Assembly: GCA_015485385.1 (NCBI GenBank)
Contig: WFTS01000064.1
Location: forward strand, 1-40,292
Origin: Kordiimonadales bacterium
Lineage (GTDB): Bacteria > Pseudomonadota > Alphaproteobacteria > Sphingomonadales > Kordiimonadaceae
Length of the DNA: 40,292 nucleotides
Direction: 5' to 3'
Shown here: in pieces, positions 18,270-25,984 of the stretch
Layout of the letters: each line of letters starts with the position of its first letter
Numbering within the stretch: position 1 is the stretch's first letter
Made by a program: the position numbers and the translations under genes
Notes under the pieces: generated by a model
The model's database searches: none
What the model was told of the DNA's origin: nothing
Seen by the model: the letters and a program-made list of their open reading frames with translations, nothing else

Positions 18270-18911
18270 TCAGCCGCTACAAGCAGGGCTTTGTTCCTTA
18301 AACCAGCGGCCATAATCACGGGCAACAGCCTTCATAGCCTCACCAAAAGCCTCCACCACACCCCGGCCTCCGGACGATTTTACAGCCATTGTTTGCTTGA
18401 AGGTTGGGTGACTTATCAAATGGCTATCTGCCAAACGGACCAGTGAAAATTGCAGAGCAATCTCGACCACATCATCTGCCGGTGTCAGACCGGGAACAAA
18501 TTCCATTGACCAAACCTTGGTGCCTAAGCGGCACCCGGCTTTAATATCCAGTTCCCCTTCGCTGACCATATTTGCGTTTGACTGTGCCGCAAGCGAGAGC
18601 GTGATATAATCGCGCAGCATATCAGATAGATGGTCAGACCAAGCCGCCCCCGCCAAAGCAGTGTGCCTGTTTCCGTCAAGCCTAACAGCTACATTTCTAC
18701 CGTCCAAAGCGCCTGCCATTTTGGGGCCGTCTACATAGACCACCGGACCAGTTGGATTAGCTTTTGCCGCAGCACCCTCATAGCGCAGGGTGAAGACATC
18801 CCCCGCAGGCCCATCGTCGCCAAAAGAAATTAGCGGCCCACATGACGCCAGCATCAAGGAGCTCAAGCCAACCACCCCAAACTTCAATTTTTGACTGAAG
18901 GTTTCCCTCAT
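18270..18911 (-). CDS. ABC-type transport auxiliary lipoprotein (PqiC/MlaC-like role)
   Basis: A 213-residue lipoprotein with signal peptide and lipobox LMLASC (Cys near residue 24). The mature part has the ABC_trans_aux/DUF330 pattern: FTLRYEG, VVYVDGPKMAGALDGRNVAVRLDGN, AAWSDHLSDMLRDYITLSL. Members accompany MCE-type lipid transporters, and PqiC is an outer-membrane lipoprotein of one such system. It is the last gene of the Mla-like operon and overlaps the MCE gene by four bases. The final segment has a Cys near the C-terminus. Confidence 0.85.
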   Translation of the reverse strand: MRETFSQKLKFGVVGLSSLMLASCGPLISFGDDGPAGDVFTLRYEGAAAKANPTGPVVYVDGPKMAGALDGRNVAVRLDGNRHTALAGAAWSDHLSDMLRDYITLSLAAQSNANMVSEGELDIKAGCRLGTKVWSMEFVPGLTPADDVVEIALQFSLVRLADSHLISHPTFKQTMAVKSSGGRGVVEAFGEAMKAVARDYGRWFKEQSPACSG

Positions 18912-19879
18912 TTTTTATCTTCCTTGATGCTGCGGCTTTTCAGATCGTATTCCACATCTTTTGCGCCAAATATAATCTTCGCAGGATCCTGCTCTAGTCG
19001 TTTCATCAAACGTGAGAGGCTTTGCGCCGTGGCACGCAGGTCTACAATCATTTTCGATACTTCAGGCAAACTTCCGCTAACAAATTGTGTGATAGTTGCC
19101 TCGTTTGCGGCGACCAGATTATCAATACGTTTGATCATATCAGTAGCCGACTGCATCGCCTTGATGGCTTCATGCACCACCTGTTCCCCGTCTTTTTCAA
19201 GCAACGCGTTTCCGTTTGCCGCCAAGCGTGAAATATTCTCCGCTGCCTCTGTCGCCTTCACCAATACCACGCGGGCTTCTGCCACAACTGAATCAAGATC
19301 CGTTGTCGCTCGGGCCAAATTAGACGTAAGCTGCTCTGTATTCTTCAGCGTATTTGAAAGGGACTTCACATTTTCATCCGCGAGAACCTTCTGTATTTGA
19401 ACAATAGTTTTAAGCGTTTGCTTTATAAGGTTGGGCGCCCCTTCATAAACAGCCTGAAATGCGGACGTGCCAGCCGGTATCACAGCGCGTTCATCCTCTG
19501 GCCCGGCAATGATCGGCTTGCCTCCCGGTGGGCCACCGGTTATTTCAATATAGGCAACACCCGTTAATCCTTGGAATTCCAGCTTGGCCTCAACACCTGT
19601 TGTAATCGGCACTTCAGAACGCAACCTGATCCAAACGCGCACCAATTGCGCATCGTGGGGCGCCAAGGTAATATCGCGCACATCCCCCACCGCGATGCCT
19701 GAATAATAGACAATACTACGCTTATAAAGCCCGGAAACTGAGCCTTCGAAATAAATGTCATAATCGGTATATTCTGCGTCTAGATCCACTTTGGCAATCC
19801 AAACAGCAAAGGCAACAAGGCCAGCCAAAAAGACCAGTACAAAACTGCCTACTAGAATATGCGACGCGCGAGTTTCCAT
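18908..19879 (-). CDS. mlaD: MCE domain protein, MlaD-like lipid transport subunit
   Basis: This 323-residue protein has an N-terminal membrane helix (ILVGSFVLVFLAGLVAFAVWIA) and one MCE domain (DYDIYFEGSVSGLYKRSIVYYSGIAVGDVRDITL ... LTGVAYIEITGG). A long helical C-terminal region of about 180 residues, likely coiled coil, follows. MlaD hexamers hold the lipid channel of the Mla ABC transporter. E. coli MlaD is about 180 residues; the longer helical tail resembles the alphaproteobacterial and PqiB/LetB-like forms. It lies between the ATPase and lipoprotein genes. Confidence 0.9.
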   Translation of the reverse strand: METRASHILVGSFVLVFLAGLVAFAVWIAKVDLDAEYTDYDIYFEGSVSGLYKRSIVYYSGIAVGDVRDITLAPHDAQLVRVWIRLRSEVPITTGVEAKLEFQGLTGVAYIEITGGPPGGKPIIAGPEDERAVIPAGTSAFQAVYEGAPNLIKQTLKTIVQIQKVLADENVKSLSNTLKNTEQLTSNLARATTDLDSVVAEARVVLVKATEAAENISRLAANGNALLEKDGEQVVHEAIKAMQSATDMIKRIDNLVAANEATITQFVSGSLPEVSKMIVDLRATAQSLSRLMKRLEQDPAKIIFGAKDVEYDLKSRSIKEDKK

Positions 19880-19964: not shown

Positions 19965-20768
19965 TTAACAGTCTTTTGGCGGGCCGCTTCCAAGGCTAGC
20001 GGCAGCACGTCCTCTAGGGCCACCAAAATATTCTTGCACCCATGGATGATCAAACTTGGTTACGTCTTCCAGAGGGGCTACAATCAGAAGCTTTTTATCC
20101 CCCAAAACAGCCACACGGTCGCACACTCTGTACAAAGTGTCGAGATCATGAGTAACCAAAAATACCGTTATCCCAAGGGATTTTGTTAAATCTTTGATCA
20201 ATCCGTCAAAGGCCGCAGCCCCGATAGGATCAAGGCCTGCTGTGGGTTCGTCCAGAAACAATATCTCTGGATCAAGCGCCAGAGCGCGCGCCAGTGCTGC
20301 GCGTTTACGCATGCCACCAGACAAATCTGCCGGAAACTTGCAAGCTGCATCTAATGGCAATCCCGCCATTGTCACTTTACTGCGCGCCAGATCATCCATC
20401 AAATCAGCGGACATGTGAAAATACTCTCTAAGCGGCACCTTGATATTTTGAGCCACAGTCAGCGCACTAAACAATGCGCCATCTTGAAACAAAACGCCCC
20501 ACTCCCGTCGGGCAGCCTGCATTTGATCATTTGTCATAGTTGATTGATCATATCCATTGATTTCAATGGTGCCCGCTTGCGGCTTTCGCAGCCCAATGAT
20601 CGAGCGCAGTAAAACCGATTTACCAGACCCTGAACCACCCACAACACCCAGTATTTCACCGCGCTTCACATCCAGATCAAGCCCATCATGCACGACATGA
20701 TCTCCGAAGCTATTTACAAGCCCCCGCACCTTGATGATGGTATTTAAATCGCTTAAAGATCCGTCCAT
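19965..20768 (-). CDS. mlaF: ABC transporter ATP-binding protein, MlaF-like
   Basis: This 267-residue ATPase energises the MCE transporter. Walker A is GGSGSGKSVLL, the signature LSGGMRKRAALARALA and Walker B ILFLDEPTAGLDP, with His in VTHDLDTL. The LSGGMRKR signature and GLDPIGA are typical of MlaF. ATG 20768 is used because it lies four bases after the permease stop; an ATG upstream at 20816 would overlap the permease gene by 44 bases. The C-terminal tail (EYFGGPRGRAAA) fits the family. An 85-base gap separates it from mlaD. Confidence 0.92.
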   Translation of the reverse strand: MDGSLSDLNTIIKVRGLVNSFGDHVVHDGLDLDVKRGEILGVVGGSGSGKSVLLRSIIGLRKPQAGTIEINGYDQSTMTNDQMQAARREWGVLFQDGALFSALTVAQNIKVPLREYFHMSADLMDDLARSKVTMAGLPLDAACKFPADLSGGMRKRAALARALALDPEILFLDEPTAGLDPIGAAAFDGLIKDLTKSLGITVFLVTHDLDTLYRVCDRVAVLGDKKLLIVAPLEDVTKFDHPWVQEYFGGPRGRAAASLGSGPPKDC

Positions 20769-20772
20769 GCGC

Positions 20773-21912
20773 TTACAGTCCCACACTGGTGAAAAAGACG
20801 CCAAACAAAGCATCAAGGACGATCACAAGAAAGATCGACTGCACCACACTTTTGGTCGTGCGAGCGCCCAGAACATCAGCGCTTCCAGACACCCTAAGCC
20901 CCTGATAACAGCCGCCCGAAGCAATTATGGCCGCAAAAAATGGCGCTTTTATCATGCCCACCAAAAAATGATCAAAACTGACATTATCGTGGAAATAAAC
21001 CAGAAAATTTGCAGGCGCGATATCAAGTTGGACCCAGGCCATCATCACTCCGCCAGCCATGCCCATCACATCCGCGTAAAAGGTTAACAAGGGCAAGCAA
21101 ATCATCATCGCCAGTAAGCGTGGCAGCACCAAAACATCAATGGGGTTCATGCCAAGCGTGCGCATAGCGTCGATTTCTTCATTCAAGCGCATCGACCCTA
21201 TTTGGGCGGCAAAAGCGCTGCCAGAGCGCCCCGCAATGATAATCGCGGTCAACAAAACCGCCATCTCGCGCAAAAGTGTAATCCCCAGCAAATCAATCAC
21301 AAAAACATCAGCGCCAAATTTAGCAAGCTGGATCGCGCCCTGATTAACCATCACCGCGCCGATCAAAAAAGTAATCAGCCCTACGATGCCCATGGCATTT
21401 ACGCCGATCACTTCAACCTGATGTATCATCGGCACCAGCCGAATACGGCCCGGAGCAAGTAAAGTTCCAAACAAGCGCGTTAAAAGGAGCCCTAAAAACC
21501 CCAAAAGCCGTGCTATGGACGCAACCGCGCGCAAAAAAGCCTCACCAACTTCAACAACGGGGCCAATATACCAAGGCAATTGTTCAGGTTCAGTAGCGGC
21601 AGGAGGCGGCCGGCAGCTAATGACGTCTAGCAAGCCTTTATGCTCTGAAGAAACACCGGTAAGAACTGCCGCACCCGCATCATCAATGTTAGAGGCAAAT
21701 CTGCGAATAAGAACCGCACCCGTTGTATCAAGATCGGAAATGCCCGTGCAGTCCAGAACGGCCCCGCAGTCTACAGCGTCCACAGTGGCGTCCATCACTT
21801 CGTCTATTGCCTGTGCATTATCAATTGTCCATGACCCAAGAAAACGCACGAGCGAACTAGGGGTCCCTTGCTCAACACAAACAAAATCTGAGTGATAGAC
21901 GATTTCCGCCAT
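20773..21912 (-). CDS. mlaE: MlaE-like permease with N-terminal STAS-like domain
   Basis: The 379-residue protein begins with about 100 residues resembling a STAS domain (VRFLGSWTIDNAQAIDEVMD, CGAVLDCTGISDLDTTGAVLIRRF), and then the MlaE permease core with HQVEVIGVNAMGIVGLITFLIGAVMVNQGAIQLAKFGADVFVIDLLGITLLREMAVLLTAIIIAGRSGSAFAAQIGSMRLNEEIDAMRTLG. In E. coli MlaB is a separate STAS protein; the fusion makes it unnecessary and is common in alphaproteobacteria. First gene of the operon; a 420-base region separates it from the divergent triad. Confidence 0.93.
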   Translation of the reverse strand: MAEIVYHSDFVCVEQGTPSSLVRFLGSWTIDNAQAIDEVMDATVDAVDCGAVLDCTGISDLDTTGAVLIRRFASNIDDAGAAVLTGVSSEHKGLLDVISCRPPPAATEPEQLPWYIGPVVEVGEAFLRAVASIARLLGFLGLLLTRLFGTLLAPGRIRLVPMIHQVEVIGVNAMGIVGLITFLIGAVMVNQGAIQLAKFGADVFVIDLLGITLLREMAVLLTAIIIAGRSGSAFAAQIGSMRLNEEIDAMRTLGMNPIDVLVLPRLLAMMICLPLLTFYADVMGMAGGVMMAWVQLDIAPANFLVYFHDNVSFDHFLVGMIKAPFFAAIIASGGCYQGLRVSGSADVLGARTTKSVVQSIFLVIVLDALFGVFFTSVGL

Positions 21913-22146
21913 AAGTACTGGCCCTTAAATGCCATTATTTTCGCTGCCGATAAGCCGCTGCATATACAGTACAGAACACCACGGCGCCCATAGAAGTTCG
22001 GCCCCAGCCTTGCTGAATTTCTTGGGAAAAACAACCCTATAATCGCCAGCTTACCGTGTGTTTAGCGCCCCGTAGACGCAAGCGGCATCTTTCTGGCCAA
22101 AAATTCTGTGCATGTGCACGATGACACAGGAAATCACACTTTAATC

Positions 22147-22174
22147 GCGCGGTGATCATAAGCGCGTGATCACC
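22147..22174. promoter_or_regulatory. Palindrome pair with repeated TGATCA
   Basis: GGTGATCA (22151-22158) and TGATCACC (22167-22174) form a perfect inverted repeat with an 8-base spacer. The same sites also form a near-direct repeat of GCGCG(G)TGATCA. It has the form of a dimeric regulator site, but no known regulator is recognised. Confidence 0.5.
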
Positions 22175-22249
22175 CAAAAGTCGCCTTGAAAGTGATTAAT
22201 TCTGTTCCCAAATGACGCTTTTTACAAGTGAAAACAGCTTTGCAAATCC

Positions 22250-22294
22250 GCAAAAATGATATTTCAAATTGAAATAATAACCCATCATTTTTGC
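22250..22294. promoter_or_regulatory. Nested inverted repeat upstream of the triad
   Basis: GCAAAAATGAT (22250-22260) pairs perfectly with ATCATTTTTGC (22284-22294). Inside lies a second perfect palindrome, ATTTCAA-A-TTGAAAT (22261-22275). The structure ends 38 bases before the ATG. Flanking TTTGC/GCAAA copies add to the symmetry. It may be an operator or a transcript hairpin. Confidence 0.6.
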
Positions 22295-22332
22295 CTTAAA
22301 TTTGCGATTTTGTTAAAGCAAAAGGCCCCGCA

Positions 22333-23523
22333 ATGACGCAGCACATAGGATTTCTTTTCAATCACGAGGCAGATCATCAAGTTTGGCATCTCGCCCCAAT
22401 GATCCCCGCGCTTGCGGCTGCTGCTAAGGATGTTAAAATCAGTGTCCTAGCGTCAACAGCTGAACAGCTGGAAACCGTACGCCAAATCGCGGGCAATGTC
22501 TCTGGCTGTGAATTCCACCTGCTCAGCGTTCCGCGTTCGGTTGATTTAATAGACAAGGCCTTCAAAAAAATCGCCCCCTACAAGCGCATAGCCATACTAA
22601 AAAACAATCTTGATCTTTTTGCTGGCTTTGATGCGCTTATTGTACCTGAACGCACCAGCTTGCTGTTGAAAGAAAATTTTGGCCTCAAGGACCTAAAAAT
22701 AATCCGTGTTTGCCACGGCGCAGGGGACCGCGATGTTGCTTGGGCTAACAATATTGCTAAATTTGATTTTGTTATGCTGCCGGGGGAAAAACATCGCTCG
22801 CGTATGCTTGAATTAGGCCTTGTTCGCCCCGAAACCAGCGCCGTGATTGGCTATATGAAGTTCGATCCCCTCATCAATACACCAGCCCCTAAGGTTCAAT
22901 TCAAACAGGACCGCCCGGTAGTGCTCTATAATCCACACTTCGACCCGTATCTTTCCTCATGGTATGATATGGGGCTTGATGTGTTGGAATATTTCGCCGC
23001 CAGTTCAGAGTATAATCTGATATTCGCTCCGCACATCATGCTGTTCGAACGCAATATTCACACGTCTTTATCCTACAAGGTGGCTCGGTGGCGCAAAAGA
23101 CTGCCCCCACACATTTTGAACTGCGATAATATCCATATTGATACTGGAAGCAAAAAAAGTACAGATATGACCTACACCCGCGCGGCAGATATTTATCTAG
23201 GGGATGTCAGCAGCCAAGTTTATGAATTTATCAACTCGCCCAAACCTTGTGTGTTTTTAAACGCGCATAATGCCGACTGGAAAAATAATCCTCAGTATAA
23301 GTTCTGGTCGATGGGGCCTGTCATTTCCTCAATTGCGGCATTGCATAATGGCTTATCGCACTCTATTGAACACCACACTCTGTATAAGTTGGCACAAAAG
23401 CACTTGTTTAGAGAGTCAATAGACCTACAATCCAAACCCTCGGCAGACCGAGCTGCCGAAGCGTTACTGAAATTTATGGATATAGACGCGTGCGAGCAGC
23501 AACCACTGAGAAAATACGGGTAG
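22333..23523 (+). CDS. CDP-glycerol glycerophosphotransferase-like (GT-B) enzyme
   Basis: This 396-residue soluble protein resembles the TagF/CDP-glycerol glycerophosphotransferase family (Glyphos_transf). An HG motif is at 128-129 (RVCHGAGDRDVAW), a YNPHFDPYLSSW segment at 199-210 matches the nucleotide-site region, FAPH at 231-234 may hold a second His, and the family DxSS signature appears as ADIYLGDVSSQVYEFINSPKPCVFLN at 286-310. TagF-type enzymes polymerise glycerol-phosphate in teichoic acids; in a Gram-negative the product is unknown. The next gene overlaps by 34 bases. Confidence 0.7.
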   Translation: MTQHIGFLFNHEADHQVWHLAPMIPALAAAAKDVKISVLASTAEQLETVRQIAGNVSGCEFHLLSVPRSVDLIDKAFKKIAPYKRIAILKNNLDLFAGFDALIVPERTSLLLKENFGLKDLKIIRVCHGAGDRDVAWANNIAKFDFVMLPGEKHRSRMLELGLVRPETSAVIGYMKFDPLINTPAPKVQFKQDRPVVLYNPHFDPYLSSWYDMGLDVLEYFAASSEYNLIFAPHIMLFERNIHTSLSYKVARWRKRLPPHILNCDNIHIDTGSKKSTDMTYTRAADIYLGDVSSQVYEFINSPKPCVFLNAHNADWKNNPQYKFWSMGPVISSIAALHNGLSHSIEHHTLYKLAQKHLFRESIDLQSKPSADRAAEALLKFMDIDACEQQPLRKYG

Positions 23524-24284
23524 TTATTCTTGCAGGGCAACGCCCAGGTGTTGATCCGGTTGCGTCCATGTTCAACGAACGTTACAAAGCTGCGGTTAAG
23601 ATTGCAGGCAAAACCATGCTGAACCGCGTGATGGAAGCCATTGATGCCTCAGGCCGAGTTTCAGACACATATATCCTGCTTCAAGAACCAGAGTTTTTGC
23701 GCAGCAGACCAGAGTTTCATGAACTGGCAAACCGCAGTGACGTGCATCTGATGGCCAGCAAACCTTCTATCAGCGAAAGCCTATTGGAAATTCTGAATGA
23801 AGCGCACATTGAGCTCCCCCTTTTAGTGACAACCTGTGACCATGTTTTGCTACGCGGGAAGGATATTAATGCTTTCATCGAAGCCCAGCCCGATGTTGCA
23901 GACATGACCGTAGGCTTAGTATCCGCCGAAATCGTCTTATCGGCCTATCCAGATATCCAGCGTACTTGGCTCACGTTTGCAGATGGACGCTTCACCAGCT
24001 GTAACCTTTTCATGATCGCAGGGGACAAGGCCAAAGCCGCGCTGACTTTCTGGGCCAGCATAGAGCAGGACCGCAAAAAAGTGTTATATATGGCGTGGCG
24101 CTTTGGCCCGCTGACCCTCATTGGATATATGCTTAAATTGCTCACCCTTGTGCAAAGCTTTAAACATGCTTCCAAATCCATGGGGGCAGACATCAAGCCT
24201 ATTTTACTGGACCATGCTGATCTGGCCATTGATGTGGACAAAAAATCAGATGTTGAATTTGTTCAACACCATTTAGAGCAATAA
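23490..24284 (+). CDS. MobA-like nucleotidyltransferase
   Basis: This 264-residue NTP-transferase starts with VVILAGQRPGVDP (residues 11-23), a variant of the LAGGxxxR nucleotide loop. GKTMLNRVMEAI follows, and LLVTTCDHVLL holds the metal-binding Asp 117. AIDVDKKSDVEFV near the end matches the last acidic motif of the family. It would activate a phosphate as an NDP, perhaps a CDP-polyol for the upstream enzyme (inference). The GTG start overlaps the previous gene; the first in-frame ATG lies after the nucleotide loop, so GTG is needed. Confidence 0.75.
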   Translation: MRAATTEKIRVVILAGQRPGVDPVASMFNERYKAAVKIAGKTMLNRVMEAIDASGRVSDTYILLQEPEFLRSRPEFHELANRSDVHLMASKPSISESLLEILNEAHIELPLLVTTCDHVLLRGKDINAFIEAQPDVADMTVGLVSAEIVLSAYPDIQRTWLTFADGRFTSCNLFMIAGDKAKAALTFWASIEQDRKKVLYMAWRFGPLTLIGYMLKLLTLVQSFKHASKSMGADIKPILLDHADLAIDVDKKSDVEFVQHHLEQ

Positions 24285-24287
24285 ATC

Positions 24288-24950
24288 ATGGGCAGGATCA
24301 TTGTTTTTGATCTTGATCGTACTGTGATCCGCTTTGGGTCTTATACTCCGTTTCTACTATTTTATGCACGCAAGTGTGCTCCTCTCAGGCTGTTGTTTGC
24401 CCCTTTGGTAATATGTGCCATGCTGGCCTATACAGCGCGCCTTATTAGCCGCGACCGTCTAAAGGAGATTATGCTGCTACTGCTTGTTGGTCGGGTGGAA
24501 AAAAGCCGCATGGACAAAGTGGCAAACCAGTTTGCAGATTATATCCTTGCTGAGAAATGTTACAGAAAAGCTGTAAGTGCTATCAATGACCACCTAAAGG
24601 CAGGTGACACCCTAATCCTTGCGACAGCCAGCTTCGCTTTTTATGCCAAACATATTGCCAAACGACTTGGCTTTCACCACACCCTCGGGTCTGAGGTGGC
24701 GACAAGTGACCACCATTATCACCCAAAAATGGTTGGCGAAAATTGCTATGGGCAAGCCAAGGCCAATAAGGTGAGTGCATTTTTAAAAGCACATGATTTA
24801 CCAAGCACCCCGGACCTCTTTTACACCGACGATTACAGCGACATGCCAACCATAAACCTGTCACGGTCCTGCGTTCTTGTGAACCCTGATACAAAGCTTC
24901 GGGCATATGGTGAGGCCACAGCCAGCGCGACGATTGTGAACTGGCAGTAG
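24288..24950 (+). CDS. HAD-IB family phosphatase (SerB-like)
   Basis: This 220-residue HAD hydrolase has motif I FDLDRT (Asp 8 and Asp 10), motif II LATAS (Ser 115), a Lys in KANKVSAF (Lys 161) and motif IV YTDDYSDMP (Asp 181 and 185). The cap insertion after motif I and the overall length fit subfamily IB, which holds phosphoserine-type phosphatases and relatives active on phosphorylated lipids or polyols. A hydrophobic stretch at residues 33-50 suggests membrane association. It starts three bases after the nucleotidyltransferase, completing the triad. Confidence 0.8.
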   Translation: MGRIIVFDLDRTVIRFGSYTPFLLFYARKCAPLRLLFAPLVICAMLAYTARLISRDRLKEIMLLLLVGRVEKSRMDKVANQFADYILAEKCYRKAVSAINDHLKAGDTLILATASFAFYAKHIAKRLGFHHTLGSEVATSDHHYHPKMVGENCYGQAKANKVSAFLKAHDLPSTPDLFYTDDYSDMPTINLSRSCVLVNPDTKLRAYGEATASATIVNWQ

Positions 24951-25018
24951 CAGCAATCCCTTGTTTTCTTAAATATTCAGTCATAGTCTATAGAAAACAT
25001 GCACGAAGGAATTAACCG

Positions 25019-25984
25019 GTGCGGGCAGACAGCACAACCACCTTTAGAACTCTATACCCTCCTATCGAAGCCTATAAAAGCGAGCGGCTTTTGGTTCAAG
25101 GTGGGCATGAAATATATCTAGAGCAATCGGGCAACCCTAGCGGCATACCCATATTATTTGTACACGGCGGCCCCGGCGGCGGAACAAGCGCAATCCAGCG
25201 GCGATTTTTCAACCCTAAAAAATTCCATATCATCCTGTTTGATCAGCGCGGCTGTGGACAAAGTCGCCCACATGCCTCGCTTGCACATAATACCACTGAT
25301 GCCTTAATTGATGACATGGAAGCCATTCGCTTGCATCTGGGCCTTAATAAATGGGCGCTTTTTGGTGGGTCATGGGGAAGTACGCTTTCCCTTTTATATG
25401 CTGAAAAGCACCCCGAGCATGTCAGCAATTTAATCCTGCGCGGGATTTTCCTGATGCGCCAACGCGAAGTGGATTGGTTTTACCAAAATGGTACACGGTC
25501 GATTTTCCCCGAGGCATGGGCGCGCTTTGCGGGGGCTATCCCAGAACCAGAGCGTAATGATTTGGTTAAAGCTTACCATAAACGCCTGACCGACCCCGCC
25601 TTTGAAAACGAGCGCCTGCATTTTGCCAAGGAATGGAGCCTGTGGGAAGGCAGCACAGTAACCTTAGTGCCAGACAGTGAACAGCGCGCCCATTCAGTTG
25701 ATCCCGTTTTTGCCACCGCTTTTGCACGAATTGAAGCACATTATTTTTTCAACAAAGGCTTTCTGGAAGCTGATAATCAAATATTACGCGATGCTGGGCA
25801 ATTAATGGGTATTCCAACAACCATAATCCAAGGGCGCTATGACAGCATTTGCCCACCCATCTCCGCTTTTGAGCTGTCGCAGGCTATGCCGTGGGCCAAA
25901 TTAAACATTGTCCCTGTCGCCGGACATTCGGCGTTTGAGCCTGCTATTCAGCACGAATTAATCTGTGCAACGGACGCCATTTAA
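25019..25984 (+). CDS. pip: Proline iminopeptidase
   Basis: This 321-residue alpha/beta hydrolase of peptidase family S33 releases N-terminal proline from peptides. The oxyanion segment is HGGPGGG, then DQRGCGQSRPH. The nucleophile elbow is GGSWGSTL, the acid is in GRYDSICPP and the His in VAGHSAFEP. The length matches proteobacterial prolyl aminopeptidases (about 315). It starts with GTG 25019 after GAAGGAATT. It follows the triad by 68 bases and may be read with it, but its function looks unrelated. Confidence 0.93.
   Translation: MRADSTTTFRTLYPPIEAYKSERLLVQGGHEIYLEQSGNPSGIPILFVHGGPGGGTSAIQRRFFNPKKFHIILFDQRGCGQSRPHASLAHNTTDALIDDMEAIRLHLGLNKWALFGGSWGSTLSLLYAEKHPEHVSNLILRGIFLMRQREVDWFYQNGTRSIFPEAWARFAGAIPEPERNDLVKAYHKRLTDPAFENERLHFAKEWSLWEGSTVTLVPDSEQRAHSVDPVFATAFARIEAHYFFNKGFLEADNQILRDAGQLMGIPTTIIQGRYDSICPPISAFELSQAMPWAKLNIVPVAGHSAFEPAIQHELICATDAI

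Follow-up and report, generated by a model that had tools for sequence, protein, structure and literature searches.

The window analysed here is a stretch of 40,292 nucleotides (positions 1 to 40,292 of contig WFTS01000064.1, assembly GCA_015485385.1) from a Kordiimonadales bacterium of the Alphaproteobacteria. Its forward strand carries three tightly packed genes, encoding a GT-B protein that resembles the teichoic acid enzymes TagF and TarL (hereafter GTB), a MobA/IspD-like nucleotidyltransferase (NTase) and a phosphatase of the haloacid dehalogenase (HAD) IB type. A first-pass annotation, made from the letters alone, described them as an operon with a 34-base overlap between the first two genes and a 3-base gap between the last two. 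This layout is correct (reading frames at 22333-24950), and the motifs that it quoted are all found in the translations: HGAGDR and GDVSS in GTB, LAGQRPG and TCDH in NTase, DLDRT and TDDYSD in HAD. As developed below, the operon is probably a phosphosphingolipid head-group module, in which the TagF-like transferase would take a step like that of CpgA in Caulobacter.

Table 1. Genes of the operon and of its surroundings in the window. Start codons of all reading frames, here and in the congeneric genomes, were chosen mechanically.
Feature	Coordinates	Strand	Remarks
GTB, TagF/TarL-like GT-B protein	22333..23523	+	396 aa, ATG
NTase, MobA/IspD-like nucleotidyltransferase	23490..24284	+	264 aa, GTG; PF12804 E 7.8e-8
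HAD-IB phosphatase	24288..24950	+	220 aa, ATG; PF12710 2.5e-26, TIGR01490 above cut-off
MlaE-like permease, divergent neighbor, conserved site edge	20773..21912	-	PF02405 6.1e-74
MlaF-like ATPase	19965..20816	-	PF00005
MlaD-like protein	18908..19879	-	PF02470
ABC-type auxiliary lipoprotein	18270..18911	-	PF03886
Alpha/beta hydrolase, other conserved site edge	25019..25984	+	PF00561

Conservation of the operon

Both congeneric copies of the operon, L023 (= genome G004) and L024 (= G001), occupy the same site with unchanged spacing, the first two genes overlapping by 34 bases and the last two lying 3 bases apart. Identities between the window and these two congeners are 61 and 61% for GTB, 54 and 49% for NTase and 50 and 52% for HAD. 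Since the overlap and the gap persist at 49-61% protein identity, we regard the operon as selected.

Among 59 relatives, GTB was found in 17, NTase-family proteins in 51 and HAD in 21. The expectation that the three genes would stay together in related genomes holds for part of this set: all three are contiguous in seven of the 17 GTB-bearing genomes (the host G000, G001 twice, G004, G007, G010, G021 and G028), while the remaining ten have only part of the trio, or neither partner, near GTB. HAD adjoins GTB in G031, G048 and G057, NTase adjoins it in G030 and lies about 3-4 kb away in G045, G050 and G054, and neither is near in G037, G042 and G043. NTase and HAD are fused into one protein of 521-609 aa beside GTB in L030, L031 (7619-9328), L033, L034 and L039; the fusion was recognized by Pfam in L031 and by a shared open frame in the other four.

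Families and folds of the three proteins

Taken alone, the window GTB scores under the Pfam cut-off for PF04464 (Glyphos_transf; E 0.04, 13.3 bits vs 22.1), has no useful NCBIfam match and finds nothing significant among PDB sequences (best E 1.7). Its relatives are more telling. With a limit of E<=1, 17 of 18 family members match PF04464 (best 3.9e-7); with E<=0.01, 13 of 31 do so (best 2e-8), and the L031 relative just attains the cut-off at 22.1 bits. No Pfam family other than Glyphos_transf was hit at E<=0.01 by two or more of the 31. Searched against solved structures, a profile of 18 rows retrieved the TagF-like capsule polymerase Cps3D (E 2.8e-4) and TarL (E 0.031); with a broader profile of 31 rows Cps3D drops out and only TarL is left (E 0.03), the GDVSS region of GTB aligning weakly with the SDYSS region of TarL at this E value.

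The AlphaFold model of GTB (pLDDT 88.9) superimposes on TagF (3l7l) with a VIA Z score of 23.5 over 324 residues at 3.8 A and on TarL (8va1) with a Z of 22.7. UDP-GlcNAc 2-epimerases tie with TagF on this model (VIA Z 23.4) and rank above it by Foldseek. The TagF-like label of the first-pass annotation is thus borne out by the fold, and less so by the window protein's own Pfam score and by the tie with the epimerases; because that score is under the cut-off, the family link to PF04464 is drawn through the relatives and the structure. Modeling predicts a GT-B fold, and the sequence tips the protein toward the TagF side. Residues H128, G129, D132, H234, D291, S293 and S294 are invariant across the 18 family members, in regions of the form HG..D, APH and GD.SS, and the conserved histidines may correspond to the catalytic histidines of TagF. 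With TagF and TarL the protein shares the GT-B fold, probably the HG, APH and D.SS regions and a proposed CDP-activated donor, but its identity to them is 12-17%, only residues 351-722 of TagF and 209-561 of TarL are aligned, the accompanying NTase is not of the TagD type, the host is Gram-negative and the family is linked to ceramide genes. Two dissimilar GTB copies stand in tandem in Sphingomonas and Acetobacteraceae.

The other two assignments of the first-pass annotation are supported. NTase, of the NTP_transf_3 family, falls in the IspD/KdsB/GlmU superfamily by profile and by structure search, the two agreeing (AlphaFold model pLDDT 93.9). Its nearest solved structure is the uncharacterized TTHA0179 (2dpw; family profile E 6.4e-41, Foldseek 2e-16), with GlmU, IspD and KdsB far behind in the profile search. 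In 63 NTase matches R18, K33, D117, D248 and D250 are conserved at 100% and G16 at 98%. The active-site residues R16, K26 and D112 of IMPCT are kept in CpgD of Caulobacter, according to PMC12275187, and we take R18, K33 and D117, unaligned, as their counterparts. The nucleotide used is probably CTP; it may also be GTP, given that some distant relatives of NTase are guanylyltransferases. HAD has an intact catalytic set, with D8, D10, T12, K158, D181 and D185 conserved at 100% in 36 matches.

Sphingolipid genes of the host genome

Judged by its genes, the host makes sphingolipids. Serine palmitoyltransferase (SPT) and proteins assigned as CerS, CerR, AasR and ceramide kinase are encoded in a cluster on another contig than the operon (L056 = G000:C89:25001-45000). 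SPT itself (G000:C89:38544-39728) reaches 602 bits with NF047603, under the curated cut-off of 670. In its surroundings a GNAT protein takes the position of CerS and a DAGK_cat protein that of the ceramide kinase (CerK), the latter with a 313-aa partner; a MatE protein, a DUF2141 protein, two LptF/G proteins, an epimerase-family CerR and an AMP-binding AasR are also present. The names CerS, CerR, AasR and ceramide kinase follow from Pfam family and gene order; the partner (L056 12552-13490) has no Pfam match and no significant PDB match. This content fits that described for Caulobacter CC_1168-CC_1152 (PMC11324152).

Two Caulobacter head-group enzymes have no close match in the host, whose genome is 93% complete. 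The best match to a CpgA-type CDP-alcohol transferase reaches only E 2.7e-4, and that to a CpgD-type (LicC/IPCT-like) cytidylyltransferase E 4.9e-6, which general NTases attain as well in most of the 59 genomes. The queries used, CDPOH for CpgA and NTase2 for CpgD, are counterparts of the Caulobacter proteins by family and gene order.

Co-occurrence of GTB and SPT

SPT was called at E<=1e-100, a limit that many matches pass while under the curated cut-off. The named genomes are those of the best 80 of at least 581 GTB-encoding stretches of public genomes, chosen by likeness to the window family. Fifty of them were checked, and 48 have an SPT match (20/20 in Sphingomonadales, 2/2 in the window's genus, 26/28 in others); seven further ones show SPT inside the GTB locus. 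Across a sample of the class, by comparison, SPT was matched in 49 of 385 genomes, namely in 9 of the 11 with a strong GTB (E below 1e-50, host included) vs 40 of the other 374. Fisher's test of this contrast, uncorrected for kinship, gives 2e-7, or 1.3e-6 without the host and 1.2e-5 when weak GTB matches are counted; the class searches scored at most 4-5 candidates per genome, so that misses are possible.

The identity of these SPTs was checked in 12 regions from GTB-bearing genomes outside the window's order (five of eight class genomes and seven named ones). All 12 contain at least one further ceramide-pathway gene, AasR being found in 11, and in four (L206, L208, L210 and L212) GTB stands directly before AasR. 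With a profile of 31 SPTs these proteins score 494-560 bits, vs 289 for E. coli Kbl, 245 for host Kbl, 217 for host ALAS and 208 for E. coli BioF.

Gene neighborhoods of GTB

The 80 named loci extend no more than 10 kb from GTB in either direction, and the genes in them were counted by tblastn. Near GTB we found NTase in 47, HAD in 26, a CerK-like protein in 19, the CerK partner in 19, SPT in seven and CerS in five. Exact copies (L087, L134, L111 and L143) were left out of the NTase and HAD alignments, the clustering of neighboring genes, the GTB tree and the 94-locus counts, and L167 out of the clustering and the tree. Among these 94 loci, 48 have NTase and 32 have HAD within 3 kb of GTB. At least one of SPT, CerK and the CerK partner lies within 10 kb in 20 loci, where by our own estimate fewer than two would be expected by chance. 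When the count is widened to a longer set of ceramide-pathway genes, LptF/G, CDPOH and NTase2 among them, 28 of 95 loci qualify.

The ceramide-linked GTBs belong to several lineages of alpha- and gammaproteobacteria: Hyphomonadales, Acetobacteraceae and kin, Sphingomonadaceae and Nevskiaceae. On a quick GTB tree the ceramide label (which takes in LptF/G and CDP-OH_P genes) needs 11 changes, nine of them forced by supported branches, these nine comprising gains as well as losses and tandem copies twice. The window GTB groups with GTBs of Hyphomonadales ceramide clusters, with weak support (SH-aLRT 85). The most telling layouts are AasR-CerR-(93 aa)-SPT-GTB in Nevskia (L158) and CerS-NTase-flippase-like-HAD-GTB in Algimonas (L104), where the flippase was assigned via a 54% identical Hyphomonadaceae counterpart. 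NTase homologues adjoin CerS in L093, L104, L108, L115, L122, L205 and L209; the window NTase is not near cerS.

The first-pass annotation had found the surroundings of the operon silent about its product. Those of its relatives speak: there the operon's genes have ceramide, CDP-alcohol-transferase, flippase-like and glycosyltransferase genes as neighbors. The acceptor, which it had left open, may be narrowed, by the ceramide genes among these neighbors and by the co-occurrence with SPT, to a phosphosphingolipid, and of its guesses at the product the modified lipid is now favored through the linkage to sphingolipid genes.

Some individual loci had further features. In Nevskia a fatty acid desaturase with a sphingolipid Delta4-desaturase domain (L158:8701-9681) directly follows SPT-GTB, and in Acidisoma a gene with a GINT1_N domain (glucosamine inositolphosphorylceramide transferase; L122:9078-9998) lies between two GTB copies. 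Just upstream of NTase-GTB, L120:7843-9144 encodes a CTP_transf_3 domain fused to an RraA-like aldolase, with members of its cluster in 11 loci. In metagenome bins labeled Klebsiella pneumoniae or Candidatus Marinimicrobia (L136; L091, L097, L110, L121, L125, L155) the genes of this family fall among alphaproteobacterial relatives, and the labels look doubtful.

Relation to the Caulobacter pathway

The phosphosphingolipid CPG2 helps Caulobacter to survive without lipopolysaccharide (PMC12275187). Its synthesis requires the CofC-like NTase CC_1153 (PMC11324152), and CpgD makes CDP-glycerate, an acid (PMC12275187; see also PMC13228409). Among the head-group enzymes, CpgB and CpgD alone had been assigned an activity at the time of that publication (PMC12275187). 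From PMC11324152 we also take CC_1154, by elimination, to be cerS.

Two loci bear on the comparison with our families. L205 and L209 contain CerS, NTase, NTase2, MPE, CDPOH, CerK, its partner and SPT, in the segments CerS-NTase-NTase2 and MPE-CDPOH-CerK-partner-SPT, and the order in L209 matches CC_1154, 1153, 1152 and CC_1158-1162 as numbered in PMC11324152. Because the gene order of L209 follows the Caulobacter numbering, the NTase family is probably that of CC_1153; gene content and order in both loci likewise support NTase2, whose best solved relative is a CTP:phosphocholine cytidylyltransferase (E 1.1e-17), as CpgD and CDPOH as CpgA. The NTase tree was considered as proof of ceramide-linked membership and fails as such, its ceramide-labeled rows lying mostly apart from the GTB-labeled ones, so that the orthology of the window NTase to CC_1153 stays a matter of gene order.

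CDPOH is strong in 9 of the 59 relatives and NTase2 in 10, all nine being shared; the host has neither. NTase and HAD stand together beside CDPOH in G029 and G052, both without GTB, and beside GTB in the seven genomes with the contiguous trio, in none of which CDPOH is strong. A single activated donor serving two unrelated transferases, GTB and CDPOH, would fit this pattern. Two simpler readings were rejected: GTB is not a strict replacement of the CDP-OH_P transferase, because seven genomes hold both, and the operon cannot be plainly equated with CPG2 synthesis, because counterparts of CpgA and CpgD are missing from the host.

The likeness to the Caulobacter system (CpgA-D; CC_1152, 1153, 1158-1161) lies in the SPT/CerS ceramide, the ceramide kinase, a proposed nucleotide-activated small phosphate compound, an NTase that is probably of the CofC-like CC_1153 type and second LptF/G copies in the cluster. 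The transferase there is of the CDP-alcohol type and here a GT-B protein; the host is without a close CpgD-like NTase, and the operon has an HAD-IB phosphatase in addition.

Di-myo-inositol phosphate synthesis (IPCT/DIPP synthase) also combines a cytidylyltransferase with CDP-alcohol transfer. That pathway ends with a phosphatase step and its product is soluble; its transferase is of a different type, and the window NTase is only distantly similar to its cytidylyltransferase (E 0.033).

A variable site beside an Mla-type transporter

In the window the operon is divergent to four genes of an Mla-like transporter and is followed by an alpha/beta hydrolase gene (Table 1). Of 31 genomes, 29 contain a match to the MlaE-like permease at E<=1e-80, and the hydrolase is near MlaE in all nine congeneric loci examined. 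What lies between the two (21913-25018 in the window) varies among 19 congeners (G000-G018), the layout having been seen directly for L023, L024, L198-L204 and the window and read from tblastn in 1.5-kb flanks for the others. GTB-NTase-HAD is present in three, one of them also with an MmgE/PrpD protein and an NTase; MmgE/PrpD is present in eight in all, one with GTB and at least two also with an ATP-grasp protein; and ATP-grasp without MmgE/PrpD is present in another eight. G011 has an empty interval and, beyond the hydrolase, two other reading frames. The site holds an NTase of the same broad family in 17 of the 19, G011 and G006 (where the site is broken across contigs) being the others. Activation genes that are exchanged beside a lipid transporter may mark a place where the head group is varied.

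Proposed function and alternatives

From the families, residues, operon structure and linkage observed, we infer the nucleotide, the activated compound X, the acceptor, the order of steps and the transport route of the following scheme. NTase would join a small phosphorylated acid or polyol (X-P) to a nucleotide, probably CTP, yielding CDP-X with release of pyrophosphate. From CDP-X, GTB would then transfer X-phosphate to a hydroxyl group on a phosphosphingolipid of the inner membrane, the job proposed for the CDP-alcohol transferase CpgA in Caulobacter. The acceptor may be ceramide-1-phosphate or ceramide phosphoglycerate, made by the SPT, CerS and CerK-like genes elsewhere in the genome, and HAD would remove a phosphate, from the X-P precursor or from the product, before or after the action of NTase. 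The lipid would reach the outer membrane via the LptF/G-like system of the ceramide cluster and possibly also via the adjacent Mla-type transporter. Because CpgD of Caulobacter makes CDP-glycerate (PMC12275187), CDP-glycerate or a similar small compound is the first candidate for CDP-X; the polyol of the first-pass annotation is one possibility, although the closest characterized pathway employs this acid.

Several observations weigh against this assignment. The operon is not beside ceramide genes in the host, nor in the two congeners with the same operon, and the equivalences to Caulobacter genes rest on family and gene order, with no Caulobacter sequence compared. Apart from the seven genomes in which both transferases coexist, NTase and HAD occur with neither GTB nor CDPOH in G026 and G035, and in 21 of the 94 loci GTB has no NTase, HAD, flippase, SPT, CerK, partner or CDPOH within 10 kb, several of these neighbor-poor loci carrying GT4 glycosyltransferases. 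The E. coli control genome also passes the SPT limit, although Kbl and BioF of strain K-12 score far lower with the profile of 31 SPTs. Within the window's order SPT is matched in 58 of 59 genomes (only eight above the curated cut-off), and co-occurrence there is uninformative since SPT is near-universal. GTB was found without an SPT match in L098 and L110 (both metagenome bins), in the strong-GTB class genomes G148 and G388 (the latter with two tandem GTBs) and in four class genomes with a weak GTB (G126, G307, G320 and G404).

In the main rival reading it is a surface or capsular glycan that the operon's enzymes decorate, using a polyol or acid phosphate activated with CDP, and the sphingolipid linkage only mirrors the fact that many of these bacteria build glycosphingolipids and exopolysaccharides too. 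Here, too, some of the neighborhoods count against a lipid product: a flippase-like gene lies within 3 kb of GTB in 28 of the 94 loci and a GT4 gene in 22, on one Sphingobium plasmid the genes around GTB include GT2, GT4 and a flippase with the annotation 'teichoic acid transporter', and the nearest PDB relatives of GTB include capsule and teichoic-acid polymerases. We nevertheless consider this unlikely, given the SPT matches in 48 of 50 GTB genomes vs 49 of 385 in the class, the presence of GTB and NTase within ceramide clusters of several lineages and the window operon itself, which is without a glycan gene. Both readings may coincide if the acceptor is a glycosphingolipid.

A modified glycerophospholipid as the product, with the Mla-type transporter as its carrier, would agree with the divergent arrangement of the operon and transporter and with the NTase at this site in most congeners, and yet it is quite improbable, as MlaD/MlaE stand beside GTB in only the two congeners among the 80 named loci, whereas ceramide genes recur. 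An ordinary sugar-nucleotide enzyme (a glycosyltransferase or a UDP-GlcNAc 2-epimerase-like protein) in place of a CDP-X phosphotransferase, as the structural tie with the epimerases and GTB's own PF04464 score would allow, is very improbable in view of the Glyphos_transf matches of the family, the weak alignment with the TarL motif, and the frequency of NTase and the phosphatase as GTB neighbors.

Our preferred reading, the phosphosphingolipid head-group module, admits an extension that we put forward as speculative and rather doubtful. The TagF-like enzyme might extend ceramide phosphate with X-phosphate units, in short chains or even processively, which would give Gram-negatives an equivalent of teichoic acid anchored in a sphingolipid; tandem GTBs would then form a primer/polymerase-like pair, and the Mla-side cassettes would vary the head group between species.

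Among the open-licence papers listed in our searches, judged mostly by titles and the first lines of abstracts, none describes this operon or a TagF-like protein in sphingolipid synthesis. The GTB family, with at least 581 stretches of public genomes encoding a member, is a candidate for a new class of enzymes in head-group chemistry. If the proposed function is true, Gram-negative sphingolipids would be tied to the biochemistry of teichoic acids, and anionic sphingolipids would be predicted in Sphingomonas, acetic acid bacteria and Nevskia.

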